A stretch of 64,000 nucleotides of DNA from Acetohalobium arabaticum DSM 5501 (GTDB lineage: Bacteria > Bacillota > Halanaerobiia > Halobacteroidales > Acetohalobiaceae). Below the pieces are notes generated by a model. The model saw nothing but the letters and a program-made list of their open reading frames with translations. It ran no database searches and was not told where the DNA came from. Location of the stretch: positions 1,429,833 through 1,493,832 of the forward strand of contig NC_014378.1 in assembly GCF_000144695.1 (NCBI RefSeq). Direction: 5' to 3'. The number at the start of each line of letters is the position of its first letter. Position 1 is the stretch's first letter. Position numbers and translations under genes: made by a program. Shown here in pieces: positions 23,883 to 36,020 of this stretch.

Positions 23883-24639
23883 TTACATATCATTCTATAC
23901 TTTAGTTAAAAAAGAAGTAATGCGGTTTATCAAAGTCTCAATCCAGACTATTTTTGCACCTTTAATTTCTACTACTCTTTACTTAATAATATTCTCTTAC
24001 TCCTTTAAAAGTAAAGAAGTAGCTAATTATTCTGTACCCTATATTAAATTCATTATTCCGGGATTAATAATTATGGGAATTATTCAAAACTCTTTTGCTA
24101 ATACCTCATCTTCATTAGTAATCTCTAAATATCAGGGAACAATTATTGAATTATTACTGGCTCCTTTTTCACATATAGAGTTAAGTTTAGGCTTAATGAT
24201 CGGTGGAATTGCTAGAGGTCTAGCTGTGGGAATAGCTATCTATCTAGTTTCAATCCTATTTTACGGTGGAACAGTTGCTCATCCATTACTTCTATTATTG
24301 GCAGGTACAATAGTTGCTGGCGTCTTTTCTCTATTAGGAATCGTAGCTGGACTCTGGGCAGAAAAATTCGACCATGTTTCAATTTTTTCTAATTTCTTTA
24401 TTACACCTTTAACCTTCTTAAGCGGTGTTTTCTATTCTGTTGAGTCACTACCGGGAATCTGGAGTAAGATTTCTCTCTTTAATCCTGTTGTCTATATGGT
24501 TGATTTAGTCCGTTATTCATTCATCGGCCAATCAGATGTTAATTATCTATTTTCTCTGACAATTATCAGTGGAGCATTTGTAGTTCTTTTAACGTTGGTT
24601 ACATATCTATTTAAGATTGGCTATAAGATTAAGGATTGA
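23878..24639 (+). CDS. ABC-2 exporter permease, start codon uncertain (ATT?)
   Basis: The permease has six hydrophobic helices and the ABC-2 pattern (FIIPGLIIMGIIQNSF, then FFITPLTFLSGVFYSVESLP). Members normally start about 14 residues before the first available ATG (23920) with a segment like FYTLVKKEVMRF; exactly that segment is encoded in frame upstream, but the only initiator-like codons are ATT 23878 and ATA 23887. GGAGGG AAGG just upstream fits ATT 23878, which overlaps the ATPase stop. If only ATG is used, the protein begins at 23920 with 239 residues. The last codons lie inside the repeat that follows. Confidence 0.78.
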   Translation: MNYISFYTLVKKEVMRFIKVSIQTIFAPLISTTLYLIIFSYSFKSKEVANYSVPYIKFIIPGLIIMGIIQNSFANTSSSLVISKYQGTIIELLLAPFSHIELSLGLMIGGIARGLAVGIAIYLVSILFYGGTVAHPLLLLLAGTIVAGVFSLLGIVAGLWAEKFDHVSIFSNFFITPLTFLSGVFYSVESLPGIWSKISLFNPVVYMVDLVRYSFIGQSDVNYLFSLTIISGAFVVLLTLVTYLFKIGYKIKD

Positions 24640-24845
24640 TATATTTGTTGCAGTGTATAGTTGATATCTTGCAAACGCTCCAAAAATCAGCCCTATCAAT
24701 TAGCAATAAATTAATCTTATGACTACATTTTAAAATGTTAGCTTATATAATGATCATTCTCTTTTTTGGGGCTGCTTTAAAGTCGCTTGTTGCAAGATAT
24801 CAACAATAATTATGCAAAATTATCTGATTGACGTGTTTAAAACCA
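24635..24845. repeat. palindrome-rich interspersed repeat, inverted partial copy 3
   Basis: Read on the minus strand this matches the right half of copies 1 and 2: the TTTTAAAC...CAGATAATTTTGCA lead, the GTTGATATCTTGCAA stem with its exact partner, GCAGCCCC and GGGCTG inside, and the terminal TGCAAC...ATATCAAT. The left half with the AGTCAA stem is missing. The stop codon of the ABC permease lies in its outer end. Confidence 0.85.
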
Positions 24846-24864
24846 AATTTTTGATAATCTTTAT

Positions 24865-25248
24865 TTACAATTCTACCCTCTCAACCTTCCATTCTTTATC
24901 AACCCAGAGGCCGATAACTTCAGCATCTAAATCCCAGTCTTTCACTTTATCTACAGCAGACTTGATATCTTCTAACTGCTTCTCTTTACCAGCTGGATTG
25001 CCGGCACAGTCATAGTGACCAACTACTGCTACTAAATCAGAACCATGCTTATTAACTGAAATTTCAACTCTGCTCTTGATTGATTCTACATTGGATTTCG
25101 GCTGGCCTTCAGCTAAAATAAGATTTGGACCGGGCTCGGTAATCATATCAACATATTCTTTGCGATACTCTTCTTGGAGCCATTGAATTACTGGTTCTTG
25201 AACTCTACCGTCCATACAATTAATTGCTGTTAAAAATTCTTTCTTCAT
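24865..25248 (-). CDS. small beta-carbonic-anhydrase-like protein
   Basis: At 127 residues the protein keeps the zinc-site residues of beta-carbonic anhydrases: Cys11, Asp13 and Arg15 in NCMDGRV, then His78 and Cys81 in GHYDCAGNP. Classical enzymes have about 190-220 residues, so this is a trimmed form lacking the N-terminal arm and part of the C-terminus. Similar short proteins occur in anaerobes. CO2 hydration is plausible but not certain. Single-gene transcript with a GGAG site. Confidence 0.75.
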   Translation of the reverse strand: MKKEFLTAINCMDGRVQEPVIQWLQEEYRKEYVDMITEPGPNLILAEGQPKSNVESIKSRVEISVNKHGSDLVAVVGHYDCAGNPAGKEKQLEDIKSAVDKVKDWDLDAEVIGLWVDKEWKVERVEL

Positions 25249-25320
25249 TAGTCTTCTCCTTTCTACTATAGATTAATCCCAGATTGTATATTTCTAGATT
25301 AATTACTTTATCCCTGCAAC

Positions 25321-25542
25321 TTGTCAGCAAAAGTATATCTTTCAGGTCAGAGTAGTATCATAATTACAAATAATAGAATGTATATTGGAATATATAGTTT
25401 TCTTTATAATATCGGAGCTCAATTAACTCCTCATGATCTTACAAGTAATCTAGTGCTTTTTATAGATAATCTACTGTTTGCACTAACAACATCTTATTTA
25501 ATTACTAGATGGGGAGAAGAAATGTTTAATAGAGTGCATTAA
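25321..25542 (+). CDS. possible small membrane protein, doubtful
   Basis: A 73-codon frame (TTG start; an ATG at 25378 would give 54 residues) encodes one hydrophobic helix, LVLFIDNLLFALTTSYLI, and ends in a charged tail. Neither start has a clear ribosome site. The frame stops just before a strong hairpin. I do not recognise it; it may be a non-coding open frame. Confidence 0.25.
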   Translation: MSAKVYLSGQSSIIITNNRMYIGIYSFLYNIGAQLTPHDLTSNLVLFIDNLLFALTTSYLITRWGEEMFNRVH

Positions 25543-25544
25543 AT

Positions 25545-25566
25545 CCTGTATCTTTTAAGATACAGG
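25545..25566. terminator. hairpin at the end of the second trk operon
   Basis: A ten-base stem CCTGTATCTT/AAGATACAGG with a two-base loop sits 8 bases beyond the trkH stop codon. The minus-strand tail is ATTTAAT, a weak T-run. Confidence 0.6.
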
Positions 25567-25573
25567 ACTAATA

Positions 25574-27052
25574 TTATTTATTCTCTAAATTAAATTTAAG
25601 GTCCTTAATTATCTTTGCTACTGCAAAGAAGATAACTAAAAACTCTAGTCTACCTAAAAACATTCCAACTGTCTCTAGCCATAAAATTCCTGTCGGTGCA
25701 TCAGCAGCTGTAATTCCAATTGACAATCCAACTGTTCCTAAAGCAGAAGCAAATTCAAACATGGAATTAGTCAAATCATAACCGTAAGCTAAATATATAA
25801 ATACTCCAATAAAGTATGTCCCCATATATAGATAAATATAGTTAGCAGTTTCGCGAATGTACTCCAATTTTATATACAATTTTGTTTCTCCACGCCAAAT
25901 ATAATTTTCTCTTACAGCATTCTGGGGCAAAAAATACCCCTCAAACTGCCAAATTAATGACTTGAACATAAGATATATCCTATAAAGTTTGATTCCTCCG
26001 GCTGTAGAACCGGTTCCGCCACCAATTAACATTAATAAAATCATACTTAACATTCCGAAGGAATTCCAATTGTTGAAAGTATCAAGTGAAAATCCAGTTG
26101 TTGAAATAGCAGTTATAGTTTCAAAGATCCCTCTTCTTAATAAATCAGGTAGATAATTATACAGCTCTGTTAAAGTAAAGTAACTAATAAGTGGAGTGAA
26201 GACAGCAATTAATACTCCTAACAGCCTCACTTCACCATTCTTAAAGAAGATCTTAAACTTTCCTTTTAACAAAGCAAAATGAGTCGCAAAATTAGTAGTT
26301 CCCAATAACATTAAAACCCAGGTTACTATTTCTACAGAAATACTATTCCAGTAACCAATACTAGCCTGTCTAGTAGAAAATCCACCTGTAGATAAAGCTG
26401 CTATTGAATGGTTAACTGCATCAAATACTCCCATTCCAGCTAAGATATACAGAATAATACCGCCAATGGTATAACCAGAATAAATCAACATAATTGCTTT
26501 GGCAGACTGTTTTACATGGGGCAACAATTGATCACTTCTCCCCTCAGCATTATATAACCCAAACCCATAAGGGTGAAGAATGGAGGATAACATAACAACT
26601 ATCAAACCAGCTCCGCCAAAGAACTGCATAATACTCCGCCATAAGAGAAAAATATTAGGAGTCTTAGCTTCATTAACTACAGATAAGCCGGTTGTAGTCC
26701 AACCGCTAGTAGCCTCAAAAACAGCCTGAGTAAAGTTTAATTTACCTGCTATAATAAAAGGCAAAGCAGAAGCTATAATTGCTAATATCCAGGAAGCTAA
26801 AACAATAATTCCTCCCTCTTTTAACGATAGAGTAAAATTATTTTCAGATTGAATCAGTTTCCAGATTACACCTCCCAGAATCATATATAAGAAACTGGGA
26901 ATCAAAAATGAAGTACTATACATTATATTCTGAGGATAGAACGGCAGCACTAGAAGAGGTAATAATAAAATAACTCCAATACCTATAGTCAAAATCCCTA
27001 TATATTTTAAAAGTAATTTATATCTCTGAATAATCATCTCTTTATATCTCAT
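25574..27052 (-). CDS. trkH: Trk-type K+ uptake membrane subunit, second copy
   Basis: The 492-residue protein has the four pore repeats of TrkH: SGWTTTGLSV, LSTGGFSTR, ISTTGFSLD and LGTVGLSIG, with STAGGIKLYRIY after the third. It is clearly diverged from the TrkH at 13346-14785. It is the last gene of a six-gene operon and follows its TrkA subunit by 12 bases. K+ uptake through it should respond both to the two-component system upstream and to the c-di-AMP riboswitch leading the operon. Confidence 0.9.
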   Translation of the reverse strand: MRYKEMIIQRYKLLLKYIGILTIGIGVILLLPLLVLPFYPQNIMYSTSFLIPSFLYMILGGVIWKLIQSENNFTLSLKEGGIIVLASWILAIIASALPFIIAGKLNFTQAVFEATSGWTTTGLSVVNEAKTPNIFLLWRSIMQFFGGAGLIVVMLSSILHPYGFGLYNAEGRSDQLLPHVKQSAKAIMLIYSGYTIGGIILYILAGMGVFDAVNHSIAALSTGGFSTRQASIGYWNSISVEIVTWVLMLLGTTNFATHFALLKGKFKIFFKNGEVRLLGVLIAVFTPLISYFTLTELYNYLPDLLRRGIFETITAISTTGFSLDTFNNWNSFGMLSMILLMLIGGGTGSTAGGIKLYRIYLMFKSLIWQFEGYFLPQNAVRENYIWRGETKLYIKLEYIRETANYIYLYMGTYFIGVFIYLAYGYDLTNSMFEFASALGTVGLSIGITAADAPTGILWLETVGMFLGRLEFLVIFFAVAKIIKDLKFNLENK

Positions 27053-27064
27053 TTATCACCCCTC

Positions 27065-27724
27065 CTATTCACCCGACAGAACTGAAAACGCCTGTCCTTG
27101 TTTTTCAGGTAAAGTAATAATTAAAACTTTATCCCCTTCCAGTAATTTAGTATCTCCATGAGGAATCAATACATTCTCTTCTCTAATTACACAGCCAAAT
27201 ACAATATCATGCGGTAGATCTAACTCCCGTACTGTCTTCCCCAATACAGGTGAAGTAGATTTTAAAACAACCTGGGAAATACTAATTCTACCCTCTTCAA
27301 TAGATAATAAATTATTTACATCTGATATCTCTACCCGCTGTTCGATCAACAAAGAGATCAATTTTGTCGTATTAAAGATCGTTTCTACCCCTAAACTCTT
27401 AAATATCTCTTCATTATCAGGATTATTGACTACAGAAAAGGTCTGCGGAATTCCAAATTCTTTCTGAGCTAATTGACAAATAAAGAGATTATCCGGGTCG
27501 CTACCGGTCAAAGCTAAAACAGCATCTGTTTTTCTAGCTTCTGCCTGGGCTAGATACTCAGGCTTAGAACCATCACCACAGATTGCAAGACTATTAGTCT
27601 CACGAGCCAACATCTTACAGTAATCTTTATCTTTGTTGATAATAGCTACTTCATAGCCTTTAGCAGTAAAATTTTTAGTTAAATGGTAAACAACCTTTCC
27701 TCCTCCAACTATGATAATTCTCAT
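27065..27724 (-). CDS. TrkA-family K+ regulatory subunit (one RCK-N plus one RCK-C)
   Basis: 219 residues: an NAD/nucleotide-binding RCK-N domain with MRIIIVGGGKVVYHLTKNF, then a TrkA-C domain with GKTVRELDLPHDIVFGCVIREENVLIPHGDTKLLEGDKVLII. This is the KtrA/half-TrkA arrangement. In some bacteria the RCK-C domain binds c-di-AMP, which would add post-translational control to the riboswitch; binding residues cannot be judged by eye. It lies between the 132-residue RCK-N gene and trkH. Confidence 0.88.
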   Translation of the reverse strand: MRIIIVGGGKVVYHLTKNFTAKGYEVAIINKDKDYCKMLARETNSLAICGDGSKPEYLAQAEARKTDAVLALTGSDPDNLFICQLAQKEFGIPQTFSVVNNPDNEEIFKSLGVETIFNTTKLISLLIEQRVEISDVNNLLSIEEGRISISQVVLKSTSPVLGKTVRELDLPHDIVFGCVIREENVLIPHGDTKLLEGDKVLIITLPEKQGQAFSVLSGE

Positions 27725-27740
27725 GCCTAACCTCTCCTTA

Positions 27741-28139
27741 TCAACTAATAATTTTATCCTTGAATTCAGTCACCAGTAGATTGGTTGGACTCATTTCAAT
27801 TATATCTGTATCTTCATAAATAACTTCTTTACTAGGATCTATTACTCTAACAAACACTTTAGGAACATCATATAACTCACTAGCTATCTGGGCTATCATT
27901 GCATTCACATTATCATCATTAGTAGTAATTACAGCTGCATCAGTCTTATCCAGTTTAGCCTCTGTTAAAACTTCAATCTCAGTCGCATCACCTACAATTG
28001 TAAAACCAGTAAACTCAGCTGATAATCTATCAAAAGCTTCACTATCCTTATCCACTACAACTACATTTTGTCCTTCTTTAGAAAGTAAATTAGCTATGGA
28101 AGAACCGGTTCTCCCACAGCCAATCACTAAAATATACAT
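27741..28139 (-). CDS. stand-alone RCK-N (TrkA-N) protein
   Basis: 132 residues make up a single RCK-N domain: MYILVIGCGRTGSSIANLL gives a perfect GxGxxG/S nucleotide motif, VVVVDKD ends the second strand, and GDATEIEVL marks the conserved acidic turn. There is no RCK-C domain. With the next gene (RCK-N plus RCK-C), the operon encodes what a full-length TrkA would hold in one chain, minus one RCK-C. The two probably form a mixed ring on TrkH. Confidence 0.88.
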   Translation of the reverse strand: MYILVIGCGRTGSSIANLLSKEGQNVVVVDKDSEAFDRLSAEFTGFTIVGDATEIEVLTEAKLDKTDAAVITTNDDNVNAMIAQIASELYDVPKVFVRVIDPSKEVIYEDTDIIEMSPTNLLVTEFKDKIIS

Positions 28140-28141
28140 TA

Positions 28142-28849
28142 TTATGCCTCCTCTGTCTCATCTTCCTCTTCATCTACCTCACCTAAATTAATATCTCTTT
28201 TCTGATACTCAAACTGGGTAGTCCTATCCAAATTATCCCGGGCCGGTTTATAGGATGGATCTAAAGCCAGAGCTGCTCGATACTCTTTCTGTGCTTCCTT
28301 TAATTTATCCTGCATTTCAAAAATCACTCCTAATAGATTAAAAGCTTCTGGTTTAGAAGTATCCAGGCTTACTGCTTTCTGTAAATATTCTCGAGCTTTT
28401 TCAAACTTCCGGTCATTAATACATGACTTAGCATACTGAACATAATCCTCATAACTATCCAACTCTTCCTCAACAATTTCTATTCGATCCCGGTCAATTA
28501 CTTCCTGAACAATCTTTCTGATTTCATCAGGAGTAAATGGCTTCCGTAAATAATCTACTGCTCCTAATTTCATTGTCTTAACTGCAGTCTTTACAGAACC
28601 AAAGCCGGTAATCATTATTACATTAGCTCCATTATCCTCTTTTTTAATCTCTTCTAATACCTTAATTCCATCTATACCGGGTAATTTCATATCCAATAAT
28701 ATAACAGCAAAATCATCTTCAGCGAATTTATCTATTCCATCCTCTCCATTAACAGCAGTTACTACCTCATAATCTGTCTGCAAACACTGTTTTAGAGTCT
28801 TTCTAATATTCTTTTCATCATCAACTATTAAAATTTTCTCTTGAGTCAT
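28142..28849 (-). CDS. response regulator with TPR output domain
   Basis: The N-terminal 120 residues are a receiver domain with the acidic pocket at ILIVDDEKN, the phosphorylated Asp53 in LLDMKLPG, the Thr in MITGFGS and the Lys in LRKPF. Instead of a DNA-binding domain, residues 130-215 form about two tetratricopeptide repeats (YVQYAKSCINDRKFEKAREYL, then AFNLLGVIFEMQDKLKEAQKEY), followed by a very acidic tail. It ends two bases before the RCK-N gene. The output is therefore probably protein contact, perhaps with the Trk subunits. Confidence 0.85.
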   Translation of the reverse strand: MTQEKILIVDDEKNIRKTLKQCLQTDYEVVTAVNGEDGIDKFAEDDFAVILLDMKLPGIDGIKVLEEIKKEDNGANVIMITGFGSVKTAVKTMKLGAVDYLRKPFTPDEIRKIVQEVIDRDRIEIVEEELDSYEDYVQYAKSCINDRKFEKAREYLQKAVSLDTSKPEAFNLLGVIFEMQDKLKEAQKEYRAALALDPSYKPARDNLDRTTQFEYQKRDINLGEVDEEEDETEEA

Positions 28850-28879
28850 AATCACTCTCCCCTTTCTTATTCTTGATTT

Positions 28880-29251
28880 TTATAAGTATTTATCAATTTC
28901 AGCCAGTAATCTTTTAGGTTCAATAGGTTTAGTTATATAGCCTTCTGCTCCTAAATTATAAGCTTTTTTGATATTCTCCTCTTCTGCTTTAGCACTTAAC
29001 ATTATAATAGGAGTATTAGCTGTAACTTCTTCATCTTTCAATGTTTCGCAGACTAAAAAACCATTCATTTTAGGAATCTTAATATCTAGCAAAATCAAAT
29101 CTGGTTTCCATTCAAAGGCAGTCTCTACTGCCTTAACTCCATTAGAAACAGTCTTAACTTCATAACCTGCATTTTGTAAACAGATACGTAAAACAGTAAT
29201 AATATTCTTATTGTCCTCAACTACTAATATCTTATTCAATCTTATCACCAA
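28880..29251 (-). CDS. CheY-like response regulator
   Basis: A 123-residue single receiver domain: ILVVEDNKN, phospho-acceptor Asp in DLILLDIKIPKMNG, IIMLSAKAEEEN and ITKPIEPKRLL. It has no output domain, so it acts by protein contact. It follows the histidine kinase by two bases. Several starts are possible (TTG 29251, GTG 29248, TTG 29239); the last gives the family-like beginning MNKILVVEDN. Confidence 0.88.
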   Translation of the reverse strand: MVIRLNKILVVEDNKNIITVLRICLQNAGYEVKTVSNGVKAVETAFEWKPDLILLDIKIPKMNGFLVCETLKDEEVTANTPIIMLSAKAEEENIKKAYNLGAEGYITKPIEPKRLLAEIDKYL

Positions 29252-29253
29252 CC

Positions 29254-31107
29254 TTATTTCGGTAGTTTAAGAGTAAAAGTGAAGATACTTCCTTCTCCTA
29301 CCTCACTTTCAACCCAGATTCGCCCGCCATGAGCTTCAATAATCTCTTTCGAAATAGCCAATCCCAGTCCAGTTCCGGTTTCTTCATCCTTATCATCACC
29401 TACCCGCACAAATTTTTTGAATATCTTATGACGGTATTCTTTAGGAATTCCTTCACCGGTATCAGCAACTGAAATATGCATCTTATGTCCTTTCTTATCA
29501 GCTAAAAGTTTTATTTTATCTCCTTTTCCGGTATAACGTAAAGCATTACCAATTAAATTAGTAATCACCCAAGTAATTTTATTAAAGTCGGCATAAACTT
29601 CTAAACCATTAGTTTCTTCAGTTATTAAATCTACTCCCTGCTCCTCAGCCTGAGTCATAAATGGCTGAATAGAGGCTTCAAATATTTTTTTCACTGCAAC
29701 TGCATCAAATTCTAAGTCTATTTCTCCAGATTCTATCTTAGAAAGATCCAACAGATCATCAACTAAATTATTTAAATGCTCACAGTCCTCTTTGGCTACT
29801 TCCAATAACTCTTTTTGTTCCTCATTTATCTCACCAATATTCTCCTCTAATAACATATTAATCCCCATATTCATTGAAGTCAACGGCGTCCTGAACTCAT
29901 GGGACACCATAGATACAAATTCAGATTTCATCTGATCTACTTCTTTAAGATGAGTAATGTCTTCTAATAAAGTTACTACCAAATTAGTATTTCCTTCTCT
30001 ATCACTAACAGGAGTTGTATTAATTCTAAAGTAATGTCCTTTACTATCATTATTATCGGGCTTAAACGTTATAACTTCGTTATTCTTACCGACCTGTTCT
30101 TCACCTGAATCTAATGTTTCAGTAATTAAATCAAAGATCCTATCCTCATCAATTGATTCTAAGAAATGGGTTTCTACTATATTGTCTTCATTTAAATCAA
30201 ATAACTCTTCTGCTTTAGGATTCATCAGCTGAACTTTATTCTCTTCATCAGTTACTAAAAGTGGATTGGAGATACTCTTAACGATTGCTTCTGATTTATT
30301 CTTCTCTTCAATCACCTTACCTACATTCATCTCCTCAAATTCTTTTAACCGCTCAGTCATACTATTAAACTCATGAGCTAATTGTCCAATTTCATCTTTA
30401 GTATCCATTTTAATTTCATGATCCAAATTGCCTGCTGCTATTTCTTTTACTGTTGCTGTCAATTCCTTAACTGGCTTTATAATTAAATTAGAAATATAGA
30501 TTCCAAACAGAATCGCGAAAATAGTAGCAATCACTGAAAAAATAGCTGTTGAATAAACTGCTTTAACAGCACTATCATTAGCCTTTTCCTGAGCAGTCTT
30601 CATATGATTCTGATTAACAAGTAATAGATCCCTAGTTTCTGTCTTTATCTTTTCAAATTGAGGCATTACCTCTTCTAAATAAAAGTTTTGGGCTTCTTTA
30701 AGTTTGGACTGATCAGCCTTTCTCTGTAAGGTTGAAAACATTTCTAGATAATTTTGATACTCCTGATTGAGATTAGCAATTATCTTTTTTTCCTTATCTA
30801 TTGTAATATTATCTTCAGCCCGCGATAGATGCTTCATAAACTGCATCTGATTCTTTTTAAAGATGTCCAGGGCTTTCTTCTGCTGACCGAAGACAAAGAT
30901 CAGTTCAGCACTATCCTGTCTTTCTAAAGCCTCCATCATCCCTTCGGCGGCAATCACACTGCGGTAATTCTCTACCATAATATCATTAATGGATTCATTT
31001 AACGATACAAAGTTATAGATTGCCCAACTGGCTACTCCAATTATGATCATAACTGTTATCAGATATCCCACTAAAATTTTTGTTCTTAAGTTCAAATTTT
31101 TAGCCAT
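29254..31107 (-). CDS. sensor histidine kinase (4HB sensor, HAMP, PAS)
   Basis: The 617-residue membrane kinase has a helix at about 10-32, an extracellular helical sensor region rich in Glu, Lys and Gln (33-175, four-helix-bundle type), a second membrane helix (180-205), HAMP (about 203-258), PAS (about 270-390), a HisKA domain with the phosphorylated histidine in MVSHEFRTPLTSM (near residue 404), and a HATPase domain with N, G1 (DTGEGIPKEY) and G2 (GTGLGLAISKEI) boxes. It heads the operon that ends in TrkH, so it probably senses osmotic or ionic state. GAGGTGAT precedes the ATG. Confidence 0.9.
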   Translation of the reverse strand: MAKNLNLRTKILVGYLITVMIIIGVASWAIYNFVSLNESINDIMVENYRSVIAAEGMMEALERQDSAELIFVFGQQKKALDIFKKNQMQFMKHLSRAEDNITIDKEKKIIANLNQEYQNYLEMFSTLQRKADQSKLKEAQNFYLEEVMPQFEKIKTETRDLLLVNQNHMKTAQEKANDSAVKAVYSTAIFSVIATIFAILFGIYISNLIIKPVKELTATVKEIAAGNLDHEIKMDTKDEIGQLAHEFNSMTERLKEFEEMNVGKVIEEKNKSEAIVKSISNPLLVTDEENKVQLMNPKAEELFDLNEDNIVETHFLESIDEDRIFDLITETLDSGEEQVGKNNEVITFKPDNNDSKGHYFRINTTPVSDREGNTNLVVTLLEDITHLKEVDQMKSEFVSMVSHEFRTPLTSMNMGINMLLEENIGEINEEQKELLEVAKEDCEHLNNLVDDLLDLSKIESGEIDLEFDAVAVKKIFEASIQPFMTQAEEQGVDLITEETNGLEVYADFNKITWVITNLIGNALRYTGKGDKIKLLADKKGHKMHISVADTGEGIPKEYRHKIFKKFVRVGDDKDEETGTGLGLAISKEIIEAHGGRIWVESEVGEGSIFTFTLKLPK

Positions 31108-31133
31108 TATATCACCTCATTCTTAATTTAAAA

Positions 31134-31168
31134 TAAAAAAAGCCGCTGGGAAACCTATCCCTACGGCT
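31134..31168 (-). terminator. distal terminator of the riboswitch leader
   Basis: AGCCG and CGGCT arms enclose a GGGA/TCCC inner stem (31141-31168), followed on the minus strand by seven T. It lies between the riboswitch and the histidine kinase. Confidence 0.85.
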
Positions 31169-31175
31169 TAATTAA

Positions 31176-31204
31176 CTAAAAACCACAGAGAAATCCCTGC
31201 GGTT
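31176..31204 (-). terminator. proximal terminator of the riboswitch leader
   Basis: On the minus strand AACCGCAG pairs with CTGTGGTT (one G-T pair) and is followed by TTTTAG. It is the first of two tandem terminators after the c-di-AMP aptamer, as expected for an OFF switch. Confidence 0.8.
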
Positions 31205-31212
31205 TAACGGCT

Positions 31213-31348
31213 TTCCCTCTTTCTAAAATGCCTACGAGGTTAGCTGTCGGATTCGGGTTGAAAGAGTAACCCTACCAGTCTCCAATGTAGATTGAAGACC
31301 GGATTCACCCCAAAAATGGGTCCCCCGTTTCTATATATCCATCTATTA
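31213..31348 (-). promoter_or_regulatory. cyclic di-AMP riboswitch (ydaO/yuaA type)
   Basis: Read on the minus strand the leader contains the conserved blocks of the ydaO/yuaA aptamer in order: CGGGGGACCCA, a GGGGTGAATCC block, CTGGTAGGG, then CCGAATCCGACAGCTAACC, and CTCGTAGGC. This class binds two c-di-AMP molecules and usually turns genes off by termination; many targets are K+ transporters and osmolyte or cell-wall genes. Two terminators follow. Here it controls the kinase-regulator-Trk operon. Confidence 0.93.
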
Positions 31349-31404
31349 AAATGGATAATATAGAACTCGGCAATTAAGTATTTTATTTTATGCCTAACAA
31401 TGTT

Positions 31405-31433
31405 ATTATACTTCGAATTTCATATATTGTCAA
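31405..31433 (-). promoter_or_regulatory. sigma-A promoter of the kinase-trk operon
   Basis: On the minus strand TTGACA (31433-31428) and TATAAT (31410-31405) are separated by 17 bases. The IS3-family element ends only eight bases upstream of the -35 box, so any upstream activator site has been displaced. Confidence 0.85.
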
Positions 31434-31471
31434 ATAAAATATGAGGTTCCCCCATTAAATTAGACACTATA

Positions 31472-32293
31472 TTAAGCCATTTTTCTCTCTTTCTCGTAGT
31501 CTTTCGGACTCATGTAATCTAAATATGAATGTAGCCTAACTTTATTATAGTAACCAGCAATATATTCAAATATATCTAACCTAGCTTGATTTCTGGTTAA
31601 ATACTTTTTATGATAAACTAACTCAATCTTCAAAGTACCAAAGAAACTTTCAGCAACTGCATTATCCCAACAGTCACCTTTACGACTCATTGAGGATCTA
31701 ATACTATGCTGTTTAAATAAATTCTGTACTTTGTGGCTTGCATACTGGCTACCTCTATCAGAGTGGAATATAAGTCCTGCTTCAGGGTTGCGGCGACTTA
31801 TAGCCATCTTAGTTGCTGACATTATTAAATCTGTATTTATTCTTTTACTCATAGAATAGCCAACTACTTTTCTTGAATAGAGATCAATTACAACTGCCAG
31901 GTAAAGCCAACCCTTTTTAGTTGATATATAAGTAATATCAGAGACCCAGACTTTATCTGGTTTATCTATATCAAAATCCCTTTTTAGGAGATTTTCTTTT
32001 AAAGGTAAGTCATGATTTGAATTGGTAGTTCTTTTAAACTTTCTTTTTTGAATTGCTTTTAAACCCATTATCCGCATTAACCTAGCAACTCTTTTAATGT
32101 TCACTGTATAACCCTCTTTTCGCAGCACTCTATGAATTCTAGGGCTACCATATGTTCCATTATGCTGCCAGTAAATTTCAGCTATTTTAAGTTTTAATTT
32201 TTTATTTATTTTTTCTCTTTGAGATGGTTTTCTATTTAACCATTTATAATATCCAGAGCGGGACACCTCTAAAACCTGACACATCTTCACCAC
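31472..32293 (-). CDS. IS3-family transposase OrfB (DDE integrase)
   Basis: 273 residues from the first ATG-type start; an HTH-like N-terminus precedes the rve integrase core with the catalytic triad Asp (VWVSDITYI), Asp (FHSDRGSQY) and Glu ([12 protein letters not shown]). The frame is open upstream to the A6G stretch near 32370, and a -1 shift there would join OrfA to OrfB as OrfAB, the usual IS3 strategy. All catalytic residues are present. Confidence 0.9.
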
Positions 32294-32331
32294 AGTAAAT
32301 TGATCACTGTGGTCCCTGATAAAACCGTAAA

Positions 32332-32635
32332 TTACTTCGCTTCGTTCGAGAAGATGCTTACGGCCTTTTTTAAAATATCACGCTCTGTTTTAGCATCTTT
32401 TAATTCTTTTTTTAGTCTTTGAATTTCTTTTTGTTCAGGAGTTAGTTTCTGTTTGCCATGGCCTGGAAAAGCAAGATCACCTTTATCTTTGTACTCTCTA
32501 CGCCATCTAATTAAAGTACCATAAGGTATGTCAAGATTTTCAGATACATTTTTTAACTGTTTTATCTGATCTATTTGATAGTTCAACAGCATCTTTTTTG
32601 AATTCTTCTGTATATGTTCTTCGTTTTTCTCCCAA
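32332..32635 (-). pseudogene. IS3-family OrfA, frameshifted near its N-terminus
   Basis: A good start (TTG 32635 with GGAGGTG seven bases upstream) begins [19 protein letters not shown], typical of OrfA, but this frame hits a stop after VKKC. The rest ([19 protein letters not shown] onward, with a leucine zipper-like C-terminus) continues in another frame. The switch lies in a run of six A (near 32552), where five A would restore one OrfA of about 100 residues. Either a one-base insertion inactivated the copy or the run was misread. The A6G slippery site for OrfAB is intact near 32370. Confidence 0.75.
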
Positions 32636-32783
32636 TTGTAGCACCTCCGTTACTTCTATTATATCGCTTAACTGGGTGTCTAACAAATTGGGGGAGGGTC
32701 AATTTAAAATCCTCAAGGATATAAATATCATCTCCAATTATTTCATAATCAATAATAGAATTAATTATAATTAACCAAAAAAT

Positions 32784-32812
32784 AACCTGTATCCGCAGGA
32801 AGGATACAGGTT
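32784..32812 (-). terminator. intrinsic terminator after the two small peptide genes
   Basis: AACCTGTATCC pairs with GGATACAGGTT across seven bases; ATTTTTT follows on the minus strand. It lies downstream of the 39-residue peptide gene. Confidence 0.75.
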
Positions 32813-32964
32813 TATTAATTACCGCTGTTAAATATTAAAACAACAATCTATTCTTTCTCTACTAGCTTTATCTTCTATTTTATTATGTAATACCTTATAT
32901 AATCAATTCATTAATTATAAATATATTATATCAAATAATACAGAATTGATAGAAATATCATTAA

Positions 32965-33084
32965 TTATTCACTACAGAAACCAAATACTCCCCCTTCACA
33001 GAGACAGCTAAGGAGCCAAACCACCAAAATCAATTCAAGATAACAACTGCAGCCACAAGAATCCTTTTCATGGTAACCAGACAT
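32965..33084 (-). CDS. cysteine-rich 39-residue peptide
   Basis: An ATG with AAAGGGGG upstream opens 39 codons: MSGYHEKDSCGCSCYLELI, a hydrophobic helix (LELILVVWLLSCL), and a glycine/cysteine-rich end. Seven cysteines include a CxCxC cluster near residue 10. The layout recalls tiny spore-associated or membrane peptides (YjcZ-like in form), but I cannot name a family. It follows another small gene by 27 bases, and a terminator lies 150 bases downstream. Confidence 0.6.
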   Translation of the reverse strand: MSGYHEKDSCGCSCYLELILVVWLLSCLCEGGVFGFCSE

Positions 33085-33111
33085 CCATTATCCCCCTTTC
33101 TTTGCTTTTAT

Positions 33112-33213
33112 TTAATAATCAAAACCGCTGAGAACTCCGCCACCAATCTGTTGTAAGATTAAAATAACAATTAAAATTGTAATAGGATCTGCTTTAAAGT
33201 AATCTTGTGCCAC
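33112..33213 (-). CDS. 33-residue hydrophobic peptide
   Basis: A GTG start preceded by GGAGGGGG opens 33 codons: a polar start (AQDYFKADP), a strongly hydrophobic helix (ITILIVILILQQI) and a glycine-rich tail GGGVLSGFDY. Its ribosome site is among the strongest in the window. It lies just before the cysteine-rich peptide gene on the same strand, so both probably share a transcript. Function unknown. Confidence 0.6.
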   Translation of the reverse strand: MAQDYFKADPITILIVILILQQIGGGVLSGFDY

Positions 33214-33360
33214 TTAAACCCCCTCCTTTCTTTTATAATATAATATGTATTCACAATATAATTGTGCAGAATTATTAAAAATCGTAACAGACCAACAAAC
33301 AAAATCTTTAAAAGAATTAACCAATAGTATAAATAAAGTTTAAGAAATAATGGACATAAA

Positions 33361-33386
33361 GTAAAAATATTAATGAATATTTTTAC
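33361..33386. promoter_or_regulatory. palindrome upstream of the ene-reductase pseudogene
   Basis: An 11-base arm GTAAAAATATT and its exact reverse complement AATATTTTTAC are separated by four bases, 36 bases before the start codon. Its place suggests an operator or an attenuator-like hairpin. A second short palindrome, CACAATATAATTGTG, lies at 33252-33266. Confidence 0.4.
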
Positions 33387-33421
33387 TTACAATTTATCAT
33401 TATATTAACAGATTAAGGGGG

Positions 33422-34575
33422 ATGAATATGCAGAATTCAAAATTATTTGAGCCTCTTGAAATTAATTCAGTGGAAATAGAAAATAGAATAGCTATGGCTC
33501 CCATGGCCATAGGGGGCTTAGTTACTCAAGATGGCTGTTTTACTAAACGAGCTAGAGATTATTATGTAGAACGAGCTAAAGGCGGAACAGGTTTAATAAT
33601 CACCAGTGTTACAAAAGTAGAGAATGAAATAGAAAGAATCAAACCGGGAATCTTCCCTGTTATTTCTGCCAATCCTACTCGTTTTATTAAGACAGCTTCT
33701 GAAATGAATGAACAGATCCATGCTCACGGTACAAAAATATTTTTACAATTAACACTTGGTTTAGGAAGAGTTGCTGACCCTCATGTTTTAGAGACAGAAC
33801 CGGTAGCTCCTTCTGCAGTTCCTAATTACTGGAAACCTGATGTAACCTGTAGAGAACTTACTACTAAAGAAGTAGAAAGACTAGTTGAAAAAACAGTTCA
33901 AGGTTAGGTTAAGATTTCCTACTGAAGTTGTACAGAATATCAAGCATAATTTAGGTAATGAATTTCCTGTTCAACTCAGATACAGTATCAAAAATTATAT
34001 AAAGGATTGGAATCAAGGCGGATTACCGGACGAAGAATTTGAAGAGCAGGGCCGGGATACAGATGAAGGACTTCAAGCAGCACAGCTGCTTGAGGAAGCC
34101 GGCTATGATGCTTTTACTGCTGATGCCGGCTCCTATGATGCTTGGTACTGGGCTCATCCACCAATTTATCAAGACTACGGCTGTTATCTACATTTGACTG
34201 AACAGCTTAAGGACAAAGTAGATGTACCGCTTATAATTGCCGGTAGAATGGATGATCCTAAGTTAGCAACAGAGGTTATTGCAGAAAATGAAGCTTTGGA
34301 CATGGTTGCTATTGGTCGAGGGTTGCTTGCTGATCCAGAGTGGCCTACTAAGGTAAAACATAATCAACTCAAAGATATACATCCCTGCATTGCCTGTCAT
34401 GATGAATGCTTAGGCAGAATTTTTGCTGGTAAACCGCTATCCTGTGCTGTAAATCCTGCTTGTGGTCGAGAAAGAGAATATGATATTCCGCAGACAAACG
34501 ATCCTAAAAATATAGCTATTATTGGCGGCGGACTAGCAGGACTGGAAGCAGCTCGGGTCTGTGCACTTAAAGGCC
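33422..34575 (+). pseudogene. NADH:flavin oxidoreductase (ene-reductase/BaiCD type), deleted and truncated
   Basis: The first frame (33422-33904) encodes the start of an old-yellow-enzyme barrel: LFEPLEINSVEIENRIAMAPMA, then GLIITSVTKVE and LQLTLGLGRVA. It stops after VEKTVQG. A second frame resumes at RLRFPTEVVQNIK and continues through TADAGSYDAWYWAHPP, the 4Fe-4S cysteines of CIACHDECLGRIF...CAVNP, and the FAD domain start IAIIGGGLAGLEAAR. Roughly 50 residues, including the conserved loop before RLRFP, are deleted. At 34576 the second IS605-group element replaces the rest of the FAD/NAD domains. A good GGGG site precedes the ATG. Confidence 0.85.
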
Positions 34576-36020
34576 GTGAACCACCTCCGAGACAAGCAAC
34601 GGAGGCTTCTCTTACTTCACACATCCTAAAAAAGCAATGCGTTACTAGAGAGATTTGAAAGATGTTTGGTATCTAAGCCACCCTTAATCTTTTTGGAGGG
34701 TTCACGACTCCATTATCCCTAGCTCGGTTAATAAGTTCGGGAATACATTTATCTAGAAATTTACGCATTATATTCAGACTACCATTTACATCAGCATTTA
34801 TAGTTAATCCAAAATTAGATTGAAAAAGCCCTCTTTCAACTCTGCGAGACTTATTGTAATTATCTTTATTTAACTTCTCTAAATCAATTGCCGAGCATCC
34901 ACTAGTATAGGCTTCATTAATGATATTAACCTCTATACCTTCTAGTTTAGCCTTATATTCTATTAAATCTTTTAATCGTTGAATTGGCACTTGCACGAAA
35001 GATTTATTATAATCCATACCTTGCTTGATTTCTTTTAAATCACCGATTACTATTTTAGACACATTATGCTTTTTAGCCAAATTAACTATTTTTCTACTTG
35101 CTTTATGAAGGTAATCAAATACATAATTTCTACGTTTAGTACGAAGTTTCTTAATTTGTTTGGTATCTTTAAATTTTTTGCTACCAGTTTGCTTCATTCT
35201 AATAGATTGCAATCTATTTATTTCCTGGTTAAAATACTTATTCTTACTTTTGAGCGGTTTACCATTAATAATGTAGTTTTCAGTATTATCTTTAAAGGTT
35301 AAAGTAGCTAAATTATCTAATCCTAAATCTATTGACATTATATTATCACCTGGAGAATTTTCTTTCGGCTGTTGTTTATATATTATTAATAGATACCATT
35401 GGTTAGTTAGGTTATCTTGTTTTATCCTAACTTGTTGGAGGGAGTTTTCCACGGAATGTCCTTTGGACATGGAGAGATTATCCTCGTCTATAAGGCTTTC
35501 AATTACTGTAGGTAATCGAAATTTAAGACTGTCCACCTGATATCGGTTTTTAATCTCTTTGGATAAGGATAATAACAAGTTGCCCTCCCTAATTCTAGTA
35601 GCTAAATTAGTGAATATCACTTCACTTGGATTATTGTCTAAATACTTAAATTTAGGTGGTCTTGGTTGACCTTGATACTTGCTAGGATTGTTATTGTAAT
35701 CTTCAATGCTATTAAAGTAACTTTTCCAATCTTGAACTAATTGTTTAAAAAGTTGTTGCCTATTGTGACTATGTAGATAGTCGGTATGCCAATTATCCTT
35801 AAAGTTATTTTCTAACCTAGTATAGACTGGTTTAATATCTTTGTTATTTTTGATTGCATAATTAGTAATATTATACAGCTTAGAACAGTGCCAACTTAAC
35901 TCTTTAACTATTTCTAGTTGCTTATGACTAAAATCGGGCTTAAATTTAAAAGATAGTTTCATTTTCTCACCTCCTCTCGCACCTTGTTATCTAGGTATAT
36001 TATAACATAAAAATTAATAT
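34576..36020 (-). mobile_element. second IS605-group element (tnpB only)
   Basis: The right end is GAAGC, a CCTCCG/CGGAGG hairpin (34600-34605 with 34584-34589) and GTTCAC at 34576-34581, read on the minus strand. The same GAAGC-hairpin-GTTCAC ending occurs in the element at 39862-40269. The left end is less certain; it includes CAAATATTAATTT near 35990-36025, a 13-mer also found in that other element. Only tnpB is inside. The left tip is placed approximately. Confidence 0.75.
34673..35962 (-). CDS. tnpB: TnpB-family RNA-guided nuclease, EAYTS subtype
   Basis: 429 residues with an OrfB-type N-terminus and a RuvC core: Asp in IMSIDLGLDNLA and Asp in TINADVNGSLNIM. The middle motif is IVIGDLKEIKQ, where the usual glutamate (IEDL) is glycine, and the zinc-finger cysteines are absent; instead there is NEAYTSGCS and RRVERGLFQSNFG. 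This is a known TnpB branch in which a different acidic residue (perhaps the Glu of EAYTS) may complete the site. The gene looks intact. It is unlike the TnpB at 16365-17480. Confidence 0.88.
   Translation of the reverse strand: MKLSFKFKPDFSHKQLEIVKELSWHCSKLYNITNYAIKNNKDIKPVYTRLENNFKDNWHTDYLHSHNRQQLFKQLVQDWKSYFNSIEDYNNNPSKYQGQPRPPKFKYLDNNPSEVIFTNLATRIREGNLLLSLSKEIKNRYQVDSLKFRLPTVIESLIDEDNLSMSKGHSVENSLQQVRIKQDNLTNQWYLLIIYKQQPKENSPGDNIMSIDLGLDNLATLTFKDNTENYIINGKPLKSKNKYFNQEINRLQSIRMKQTGSKKFKDTKQIKKLRTKRRNYVFDYLHKASRKIVNLAKKHNVSKIVIGDLKEIKQGMDYNKSFVQVPIQRLKDLIEYKAKLEGIEVNIINEAYTSGCSAIDLEKLNKDNYNKSRRVERGLFQSNFGLTINADVNGSLNIMRKFLDKCIPELINRARDNGVVNPPKRLRVA

Follow-up and report, generated by a model that had tools for sequence, protein, structure and literature searches.

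How does a potassium importer come to share an operon, and a single RNA switch, with a sensor kinase and two response regulators that lack a recognizable DNA-binding domain? The question is raised by a 64,000-nucleotide stretch of the Acetohalobium arabaticum DSM 5501 genome (contig NC_014378.1, positions 1,429,833 to 1,493,832; hereafter the window), in which a leader with a cyclic di-AMP (c-di-AMP) riboswitch precedes genes for a membrane histidine kinase (HK), a CheY-like protein, a response regulator joining a receiver to tetratricopeptide repeats (receiver-TPR), the two subunits of a split TrkA (a lone RCK_N and an RCK_N+RCK_C protein, RCK_NC), and TrkH (Table 1). We somewhat favor the view that this is a K+ (turgor) uptake operon under two levels of control, with the riboswitch as one level and, as the other, the kinase acting on Trk through the receiver-TPR protein. 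Judging from the genes and their linkage, the regulators appear likely to act directly on the TrkA gating ring. The genome is a single contig of 2,469,596 bases, and its relatives are Halanaerobiales.

The leader contains each element that a preliminary description, made from the window's letters, had recognized: a promoter, a ydaO/yuaA c-di-AMP aptamer, and two terminators. The aptamer is complete, covering model positions 1-134 of RF00379 and scoring 101.1 bits against a gathering threshold of 38 bits, and it is the sole Rfam match across the window (cmscan). It reaches further, to 31382, than the 31213-31348 first given. The promoter site, with its full match to consensus, is unique within 24600-33500. 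Both terminators consist of a hairpin and a T-run between aptamer and kinase, and no shuffled sequence folded equally well. Comparison of homologous leaders revealed no counterpart of terminator 2 in the sister species. Of the 21 leaders directly preceding a kinase, 20 carry one or more terminator hairpins, each with a T-run, after the aptamer, which suggests that expression of the Trk operon has long been controlled by transcription termination. Just outside the operon, an IS3-family element (31442-32700, with two open reading frames [ORFs] at 31472-32293 and 32332-32592; six near-identical genomic copies) ends 9 bases upstream of the -35 box.

ORFs and Pfam domains agree with the six genes first described and with their close spacing; the gaps from HK to TrkH are, in order, 2, 24, 2, 16, and 12 bases. 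The kinase has two transmembrane segments by hydropathy and an extracytoplasmic four-helix sensor whose Pfam match to 4HB_MCP is weak. Its AlphaFold model has a mean predicted local distance difference test (pLDDT) score of 82, and H403 of the HisKA domain is invariant in an alignment of 46 homologues. Three sensor motifs (NYxS, ERQDS, and RAxDN) are conserved across phyla. A PDB sequence search found no relative of the sensor at the threshold used, and structure search matches were dominated by the kinase core, with none informative on the sensor. Neither regulator has a DNA-binding domain by Pfam, as had been claimed. The receiver-TPR protein is modeled confidently (pLDDT 90) as a receiver, two TPRs, and a capping helix. 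In a cross-phylum alignment of 65 sequences, D13, the phospho-site D55, and K105 are invariant, and D12 and T83 are each present in at least 90%; the receiver thus has the acidic pocket, phospho-Asp, Thr, and Lys of a phosphorylation-dependent response regulator. The TPR core (residues 168-212) is conserved like the receiver across phyla, with top-residue frequencies of 0.68 and 0.66, respectively. No solved protein with this layout was among the best 50 Foldseek matches, and wider matches (PorX, NtrX, RssB) arise via the receiver. The remaining three genes encode what a Trk system of the split-TrkA (TM1088) type consists of, namely TrkH, a lone RCK_N, and an RCK_N/RCK_C protein. The best solved relatives of the two RCK proteins are TM1088A (3L4B_A, E 2.2e-32) and TM1088B (3L4B_C, E 1.2e-46).

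Table 1. Features of the riboswitch-kinase-Trk operon in the window, and stand-alone TPR proteins at other loci (L numbers, with coordinates within each locus)
Feature	Position	Strand	Evidence
Sigma-70-type promoter, TTGACA-17-TATAAT	31405..31433	-	12/12 consensus positions matched
ydaO/yuaA c-di-AMP riboswitch aptamer, RF00379	31214..31382	-	cmscan 101.1 bits, E 7.6e-23
Intrinsic terminator 1, expression platform	31178..31206 (approximate, read from sequence)	-	AACCGCAGGGATTTCTCTGTGGTTTTT, -13.6 kcal/mol, z -6.1
Intrinsic terminator 2	31130..31169 (approximate, read from sequence)	-	AAGCCGTAGGGATAGGTTTCCCAGCGGCTTTTTTT, about -17 kcal/mol
Membrane histidine kinase, HK	29254..31107	-	Pfam: 4HB_MCP-like, HAMP, PAS, HisKA, HATPase
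CheY-like single-domain response regulator	28880..29251	-	Response_reg E 1.8e-30
Receiver-TPR response regulator	28142..28855	-	Pfam; receiver, two TPRs, capping helix
Lone RCK_N subunit of split TrkA, TM1088A-like	27741..28139	-	TrkA_N E 1.3e-27
RCK_N+RCK_C subunit of split TrkA, TM1088B-like	27065..27724	-	TrkA_N, TrkA_C
TrkH, K+-translocating subunit	25574..27052	-	PF02386 E 1.4e-49
Stand-alone TPR proteins	L146 4686-5153; L147 3827-4261; L165 9814-10197; L166 6548-6835

Conservation within the class indicates that this neighborhood is not accidental. We compared the same region from 32 genomes with a full-length receiver-TPR protein, 30 of which have split TrkA. All six genes are kept, in order and strand, in 29 of these 30, and the thirtieth locus ends at a contig edge. 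The c-di-AMP riboswitch lies upstream in 26 of 27 assessable loci. In some the kinase follows it immediately; in others a KtrB-KtrA pair, in one case along with a KimA-like gene, separates leader from kinase. In the exception, L032, a group II intron match occupies the expected leader site. No linked DNA-binding regulator was found at the class loci. Since gene order is conserved across the class and, as described below, across phyla, we reject a plain artifact or chance neighborhood; comparative sequence evidence confirms the stretch from kinase to TrkH as a real operon under the riboswitch. The kinase and trk genes accordingly remain linked in relatives, and leader, domains, and class conservation together support the initial proposal that one riboswitch governs a single operon tying a two-component system to Trk. 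In several relatives KdpA-KdpB-KdpC-Usp genes lie directly downstream of the Trk operon (L038 7898-13066, L052, L053, and L056), and those of L056 have their own c-di-AMP riboswitch.

Within the class, the pairing of lone RCK_N with receiver-TPR is strict. A search of 61 class and phylum genomes located a lone RCK_N in 31, each adjoining a receiver-TPR gene, and only two genomes with a full-length receiver-TPR protein (G031 and G036) have no lone RCK_N. In both, the riboswitch controls a receiver-TPR gene accompanied by a KimA-like permease (in G031 also by a KtrA-like gene), and no kinase was seen. At L061 (6890-9301) and L062 (7838-9313), the order is riboswitch, small gene of about 110 codons without a Pfam match, receiver-TPR, and KimA-like permease, with no kinase. 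Among 245 sampled Clostridia, the closest three lone RCK_N genes all have receiver-TPR 53-63 bp upstream.

Beyond the class, we searched one genome per species with a profile of the TPR half and took the best 80 loci; since Trk-linked members supplied the query, the sampling leans toward close relatives. These loci fall in Bacillota, Thermodesulfobacteriota, Planctomycetota, Chloroflexota, Fidelibacterota, Riflebacteriota, Cyanobacteriota, Mcinerneyibacteriota, Actinomycetota, Synergistota, Myxococcota, and others. The order HK-(CheY)-receiver-TPR-RCK_N-RCK_NC-TrkH recurs, the riboswitch left aside, in 11 named phyla. Split TrkA adjoins 65 of the 78 assessable receiver-TPR genes (the window counted), and nine more adjoin other K+ importers. 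RCK_N is the next gene 3' of receiver-TPR in 63 loci, and all three Trk genes lie downstream on the same strand in 58; in L127 the kinase is displaced, yet receiver-TPR still adjoins RCK_N. The CheY-like gene was encountered in Bacillota, L096, and one unclassified metagenome-assembled genome (MAG) only. The riboswitch also stands directly before the kinase at seven other loci from Clostridia (L076, L082, L084, L093, L100, L105, and L155) and precedes KtrB-KtrA-kinase in L148. A scan of loci from outside Bacillota or of unclassified origin detected none; the kinase/receiver-TPR/Trk module is therefore wider than the riboswitch, which is, on this sampling, a Bacillota addition. No receiver or TPR is fused to an RCK domain in the 80 loci; the only fusion, from a Desulfobacula genome (L118 2402-4564), makes RCK_NC and TrkH a single reading frame. 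Among other variations, L113 (532-2217), from a genome of Bacteroidota/Rhodothermota type, encodes near KtrB-KtrA a receiver-TPR protein that bears a Usp domain at its C terminus, and a fluoride riboswitch, probably unrelated, lies upstream of a kinase-Trk locus in a Bacillota MAG (L121 4674-4733).

Four clostridial genomes have the TPR module on its own, with no receiver attached, within the trk operon or close to it. In L146 and L147, a TPR-only ORF of 145-156 residues sits directly before lone RCK_N-RCK_NC-TrkH, with no receiver-TPR there, and is itself preceded by a kinase gene and a regulator gene of two-domain size. The L146 protein is 38% identical to the TPR half of the window protein over 92 residues (E 6e-22). 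In L165 and L166, no more than about 4 kb separates a stand-alone homologue from trk genes. A YDE/YDQ-xxxG motif forms the end of three of these four proteins. Because the receiver-less TPR stays with trk genes, it can be read as the trk-linked part, which points to the TPR working with the transporter and the receiver serving as a phosphorylation-dependent, add-on switch.

We propose the following mechanism. As the riboswitch class and leader anatomy suggest, c-di-AMP from the single diadenylate cyclase would bind the leader and favor termination, such that kinase, regulators, and Trk are made only at low c-di-AMP and hence low K+. The membrane kinase would sense an extracytoplasmic cue and phosphorylate the receiver of the receiver-TPR protein, and the CheY-like protein would probably tune or drain the phosphosignal; intact active sites and gene linkage are consistent with this step. 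The TPR half, a putative Trk accessory module, would then dock on the split TrkA ring (lone RCK_N plus RCK_NC) or on TrkH, with receiver phosphorylation switching the docking and so setting channel activity fast, without transcription. This last step is new and unproven; the receiver-less TPR near trk and the strict pairing with lone RCK_N argue for it. We give an even chance to the broader proposal that two-component control of the channel itself is widespread, with phosphorylated receiver-TPR gating TrkA/TrkH, c-di-AMP setting expression via RNA in Bacillota, and the TPR representing an unrecognized third cytoplasmic Trk component.

Several observations weigh against this mechanism. Receiver-TPR is also encoded with KtrAB (L110, L113, L123, and L148-L150), with KimA-like APC permeases, some Usp-fused (L104, L115, L119, and L126), and probably with Kdp (L092 and L124), and it occurs without a K+ gene nearby in L097, L098, L103, and L109. 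Because the kinase/receiver-TPR pair also accompanies other importers, a Trk-only target is too narrow; by gene neighborhood, the partner is usually, not solely, split Trk, and this variety weighs most heavily against a mechanism aimed purely at TrkA. Lone RCK_N is also not required, since receiver-TPR precedes a full-length, 474-residue TrkA in L151 and both TrkA subunits bear RCK_C in some loci; for this reason we did not adopt the space left by the absent RCK_C of lone RCK_N as a docking site. Among tree-distance partial correlations (five proteins, 50 loci), a non-decisive test of co-evolution, that of receiver-TPR with HK is strongest (0.61) and that with RCK_N is 0.10, the pattern expected from shared signaling alone. 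In Thermodesulfobacteriota, an NtrC-type DNA-binding regulator often adjoins the pair, and a transcriptional arm is therefore possible there.

We considered three alternatives. The kinase and regulators might simply be co-expressed with Trk, forming a K+ or osmotic stress circuit whose output lies elsewhere, in an unlinked transcription factor or enzyme, with all components needed at low K+. The changing partners (Trk, Ktr, KimA-like, Kdp, or none) and a receiver-TPR evolution most like that of HK would suit such a circuit, as would the adjoining NtrC-type regulator, which is of the sigma-54 kind (L137 by Pfam, with similar matches in L114 and L122). We consider it unlikely, given that class loci have no linked DNA-binding regulator, that receiver-less TPR homologues stay by trk genes, and that lone RCK_N never occurs without receiver-TPR in the 61 genomes. 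TPR folds are commonly scaffolds, and the constant pairing with lone RCK_N and the existence of receiver-less versions would also be compatible with a chaperone-like factor for assembly of the split TrkA ring or its docking at the membrane, with phosphorylation regulating amount rather than gating. The intact phospho-site of nearly all members and the dedicated kinase suggest dynamic control instead, and receiver-TPR also accompanies full-length TrkA and Ktr, making this role, in our estimation, quite unlikely.

Information could also flow in the opposite direction, with Trk as the sensor and the TPR telling the kinase what nucleotide or conformational state the gating ring is in, much as transporters serve some kinases as co-sensors. 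The same linkage would result, the TPR exists apart from the receiver, and the extracytoplasmic sensor could be secondary. Such a scheme would leave the phosphorylated receivers without an output, as the class shows no linkage to a DNA-binding regulator, and the sensor domain has cross-phylum motifs of its own; we regard it as very improbable. We retain control of Trk by the receiver-TPR protein as our working model, and the interpretation first given is partly supported. Action of the regulators on Trk is favored by the receiver-less TPR genes and the lone RCK_N pairing; a target confined to Trk is too narrow, and in Thermodesulfobacteriota a transcriptional arm may exist.

The role of c-di-AMP may differ between K+ systems of this organism. 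The genome encodes one protein with a diadenylate cyclase (DAC) domain. A second c-di-AMP riboswitch (L144 5435-5586; genome 423434-423585) precedes genes of KtrB-KtrA-KtrB-KtrA size, and in related genera both K+ operons are fused behind a single riboswitch after infC and rplT. The RCK_C domain of Staphylococcus aureus KtrA (4xtt) has been named as a nucleotide-binding RCK_C (PMC12453120). KtrA at the second riboswitch locus matches it at 9e-18. The window RCK_C does not match it even at E 10; it is of the TrkA/TM1088B type, not recognizably a 4xtt-type c-di-AMP receptor by sequence, though it may still bind. Because the same-genome KtrA matches 4xtt and the window protein does not, c-di-AMP binding cannot be assumed for the latter, and the suggestion that c-di-AMP binds RCK_C is unsupported by sequence for the window Trk. 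In this genome, c-di-AMP may target the KtrA protein itself and influence the Trk operon mainly at the RNA level. Elsewhere in the window, two overlapping ORFs in different frames (33422-34658, plus strand) resemble, by eye, a frameshifted old-yellow-enzyme-type reductase.

Studies of Trk and Ktr gating deal with the action of ATP/ADP, Na+, and c-di-AMP on RCK subunits. If our proposal is true, many bacteria (in at least 11 phyla) would also use phosphorylation to gate K+ entry, on a time scale like that of osmotic shock, and an orphan family of receiver-TPR regulators would gain a role. Salt-loving anaerobes are thought to offset high salt with internal K+, and here, in such organisms, the c-di-AMP riboswitch appears to govern signaling and transport genes jointly. 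We found no description of this kinase-receiver-TPR-split-Trk arrangement in the literature searched, an absence that is weak evidence because subscription papers lay mostly outside the search. The arrangement looks like undescribed control of K+ entry by protein phosphorylation.

NtrX-type regulators carry AAA+ and DNA-binding domains. The window regulators have neither AAA+ nor helix-turn-helix (HTH) domains by Pfam, setting them apart from the NtrYX/PlrSR-trkAH clusters of proteobacteria, which resemble the window in placing a kinase and a response regulator immediately 5' of trkA and trkH (PMC13001219). In that system, of the 198 homologues closest to PlrS, only about one-quarter are followed by trkAH, and in Bordetella the cluster does not form a single operon (PMC13001219). 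The leader resembles the ydaO/yuaA (RF00379) leader on kdpFABC of Bacillus thuringiensis (PMC6488665) in placing this aptamer class before a K+ importer operon and in its termination platform (here by anatomy); a difference is that the first gene here encodes a sensor kinase, and signaling genes and transporter therefore share one switch. Lone RCK_N, RCK_N/RCK_C, and TrkH are shared with TM1088A/TM1088B-TM1089 of Thermotoga maritima (3L4B), whose RCK proteins form an octameric gating ring (PMC4380455); the text of that paper on TM1088 mentions no kinase or receiver-TPR protein, a comparison with the paper rather than with the T. maritima gene neighborhood. KdpD/KdpE-KdpFABC likewise ties a sensor kinase to a K+ importer, and the Kdp pump is controlled post-translationally, being inhibited by KdpD through its own serine-kinase domain (PMC11018627). 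The window proteins have neither the KdpD sensor and Usp domains nor the KdpE DNA-binding domain by Pfam, and where KdpE binds DNA, the candidate effector here is the receiver-TPR protein.

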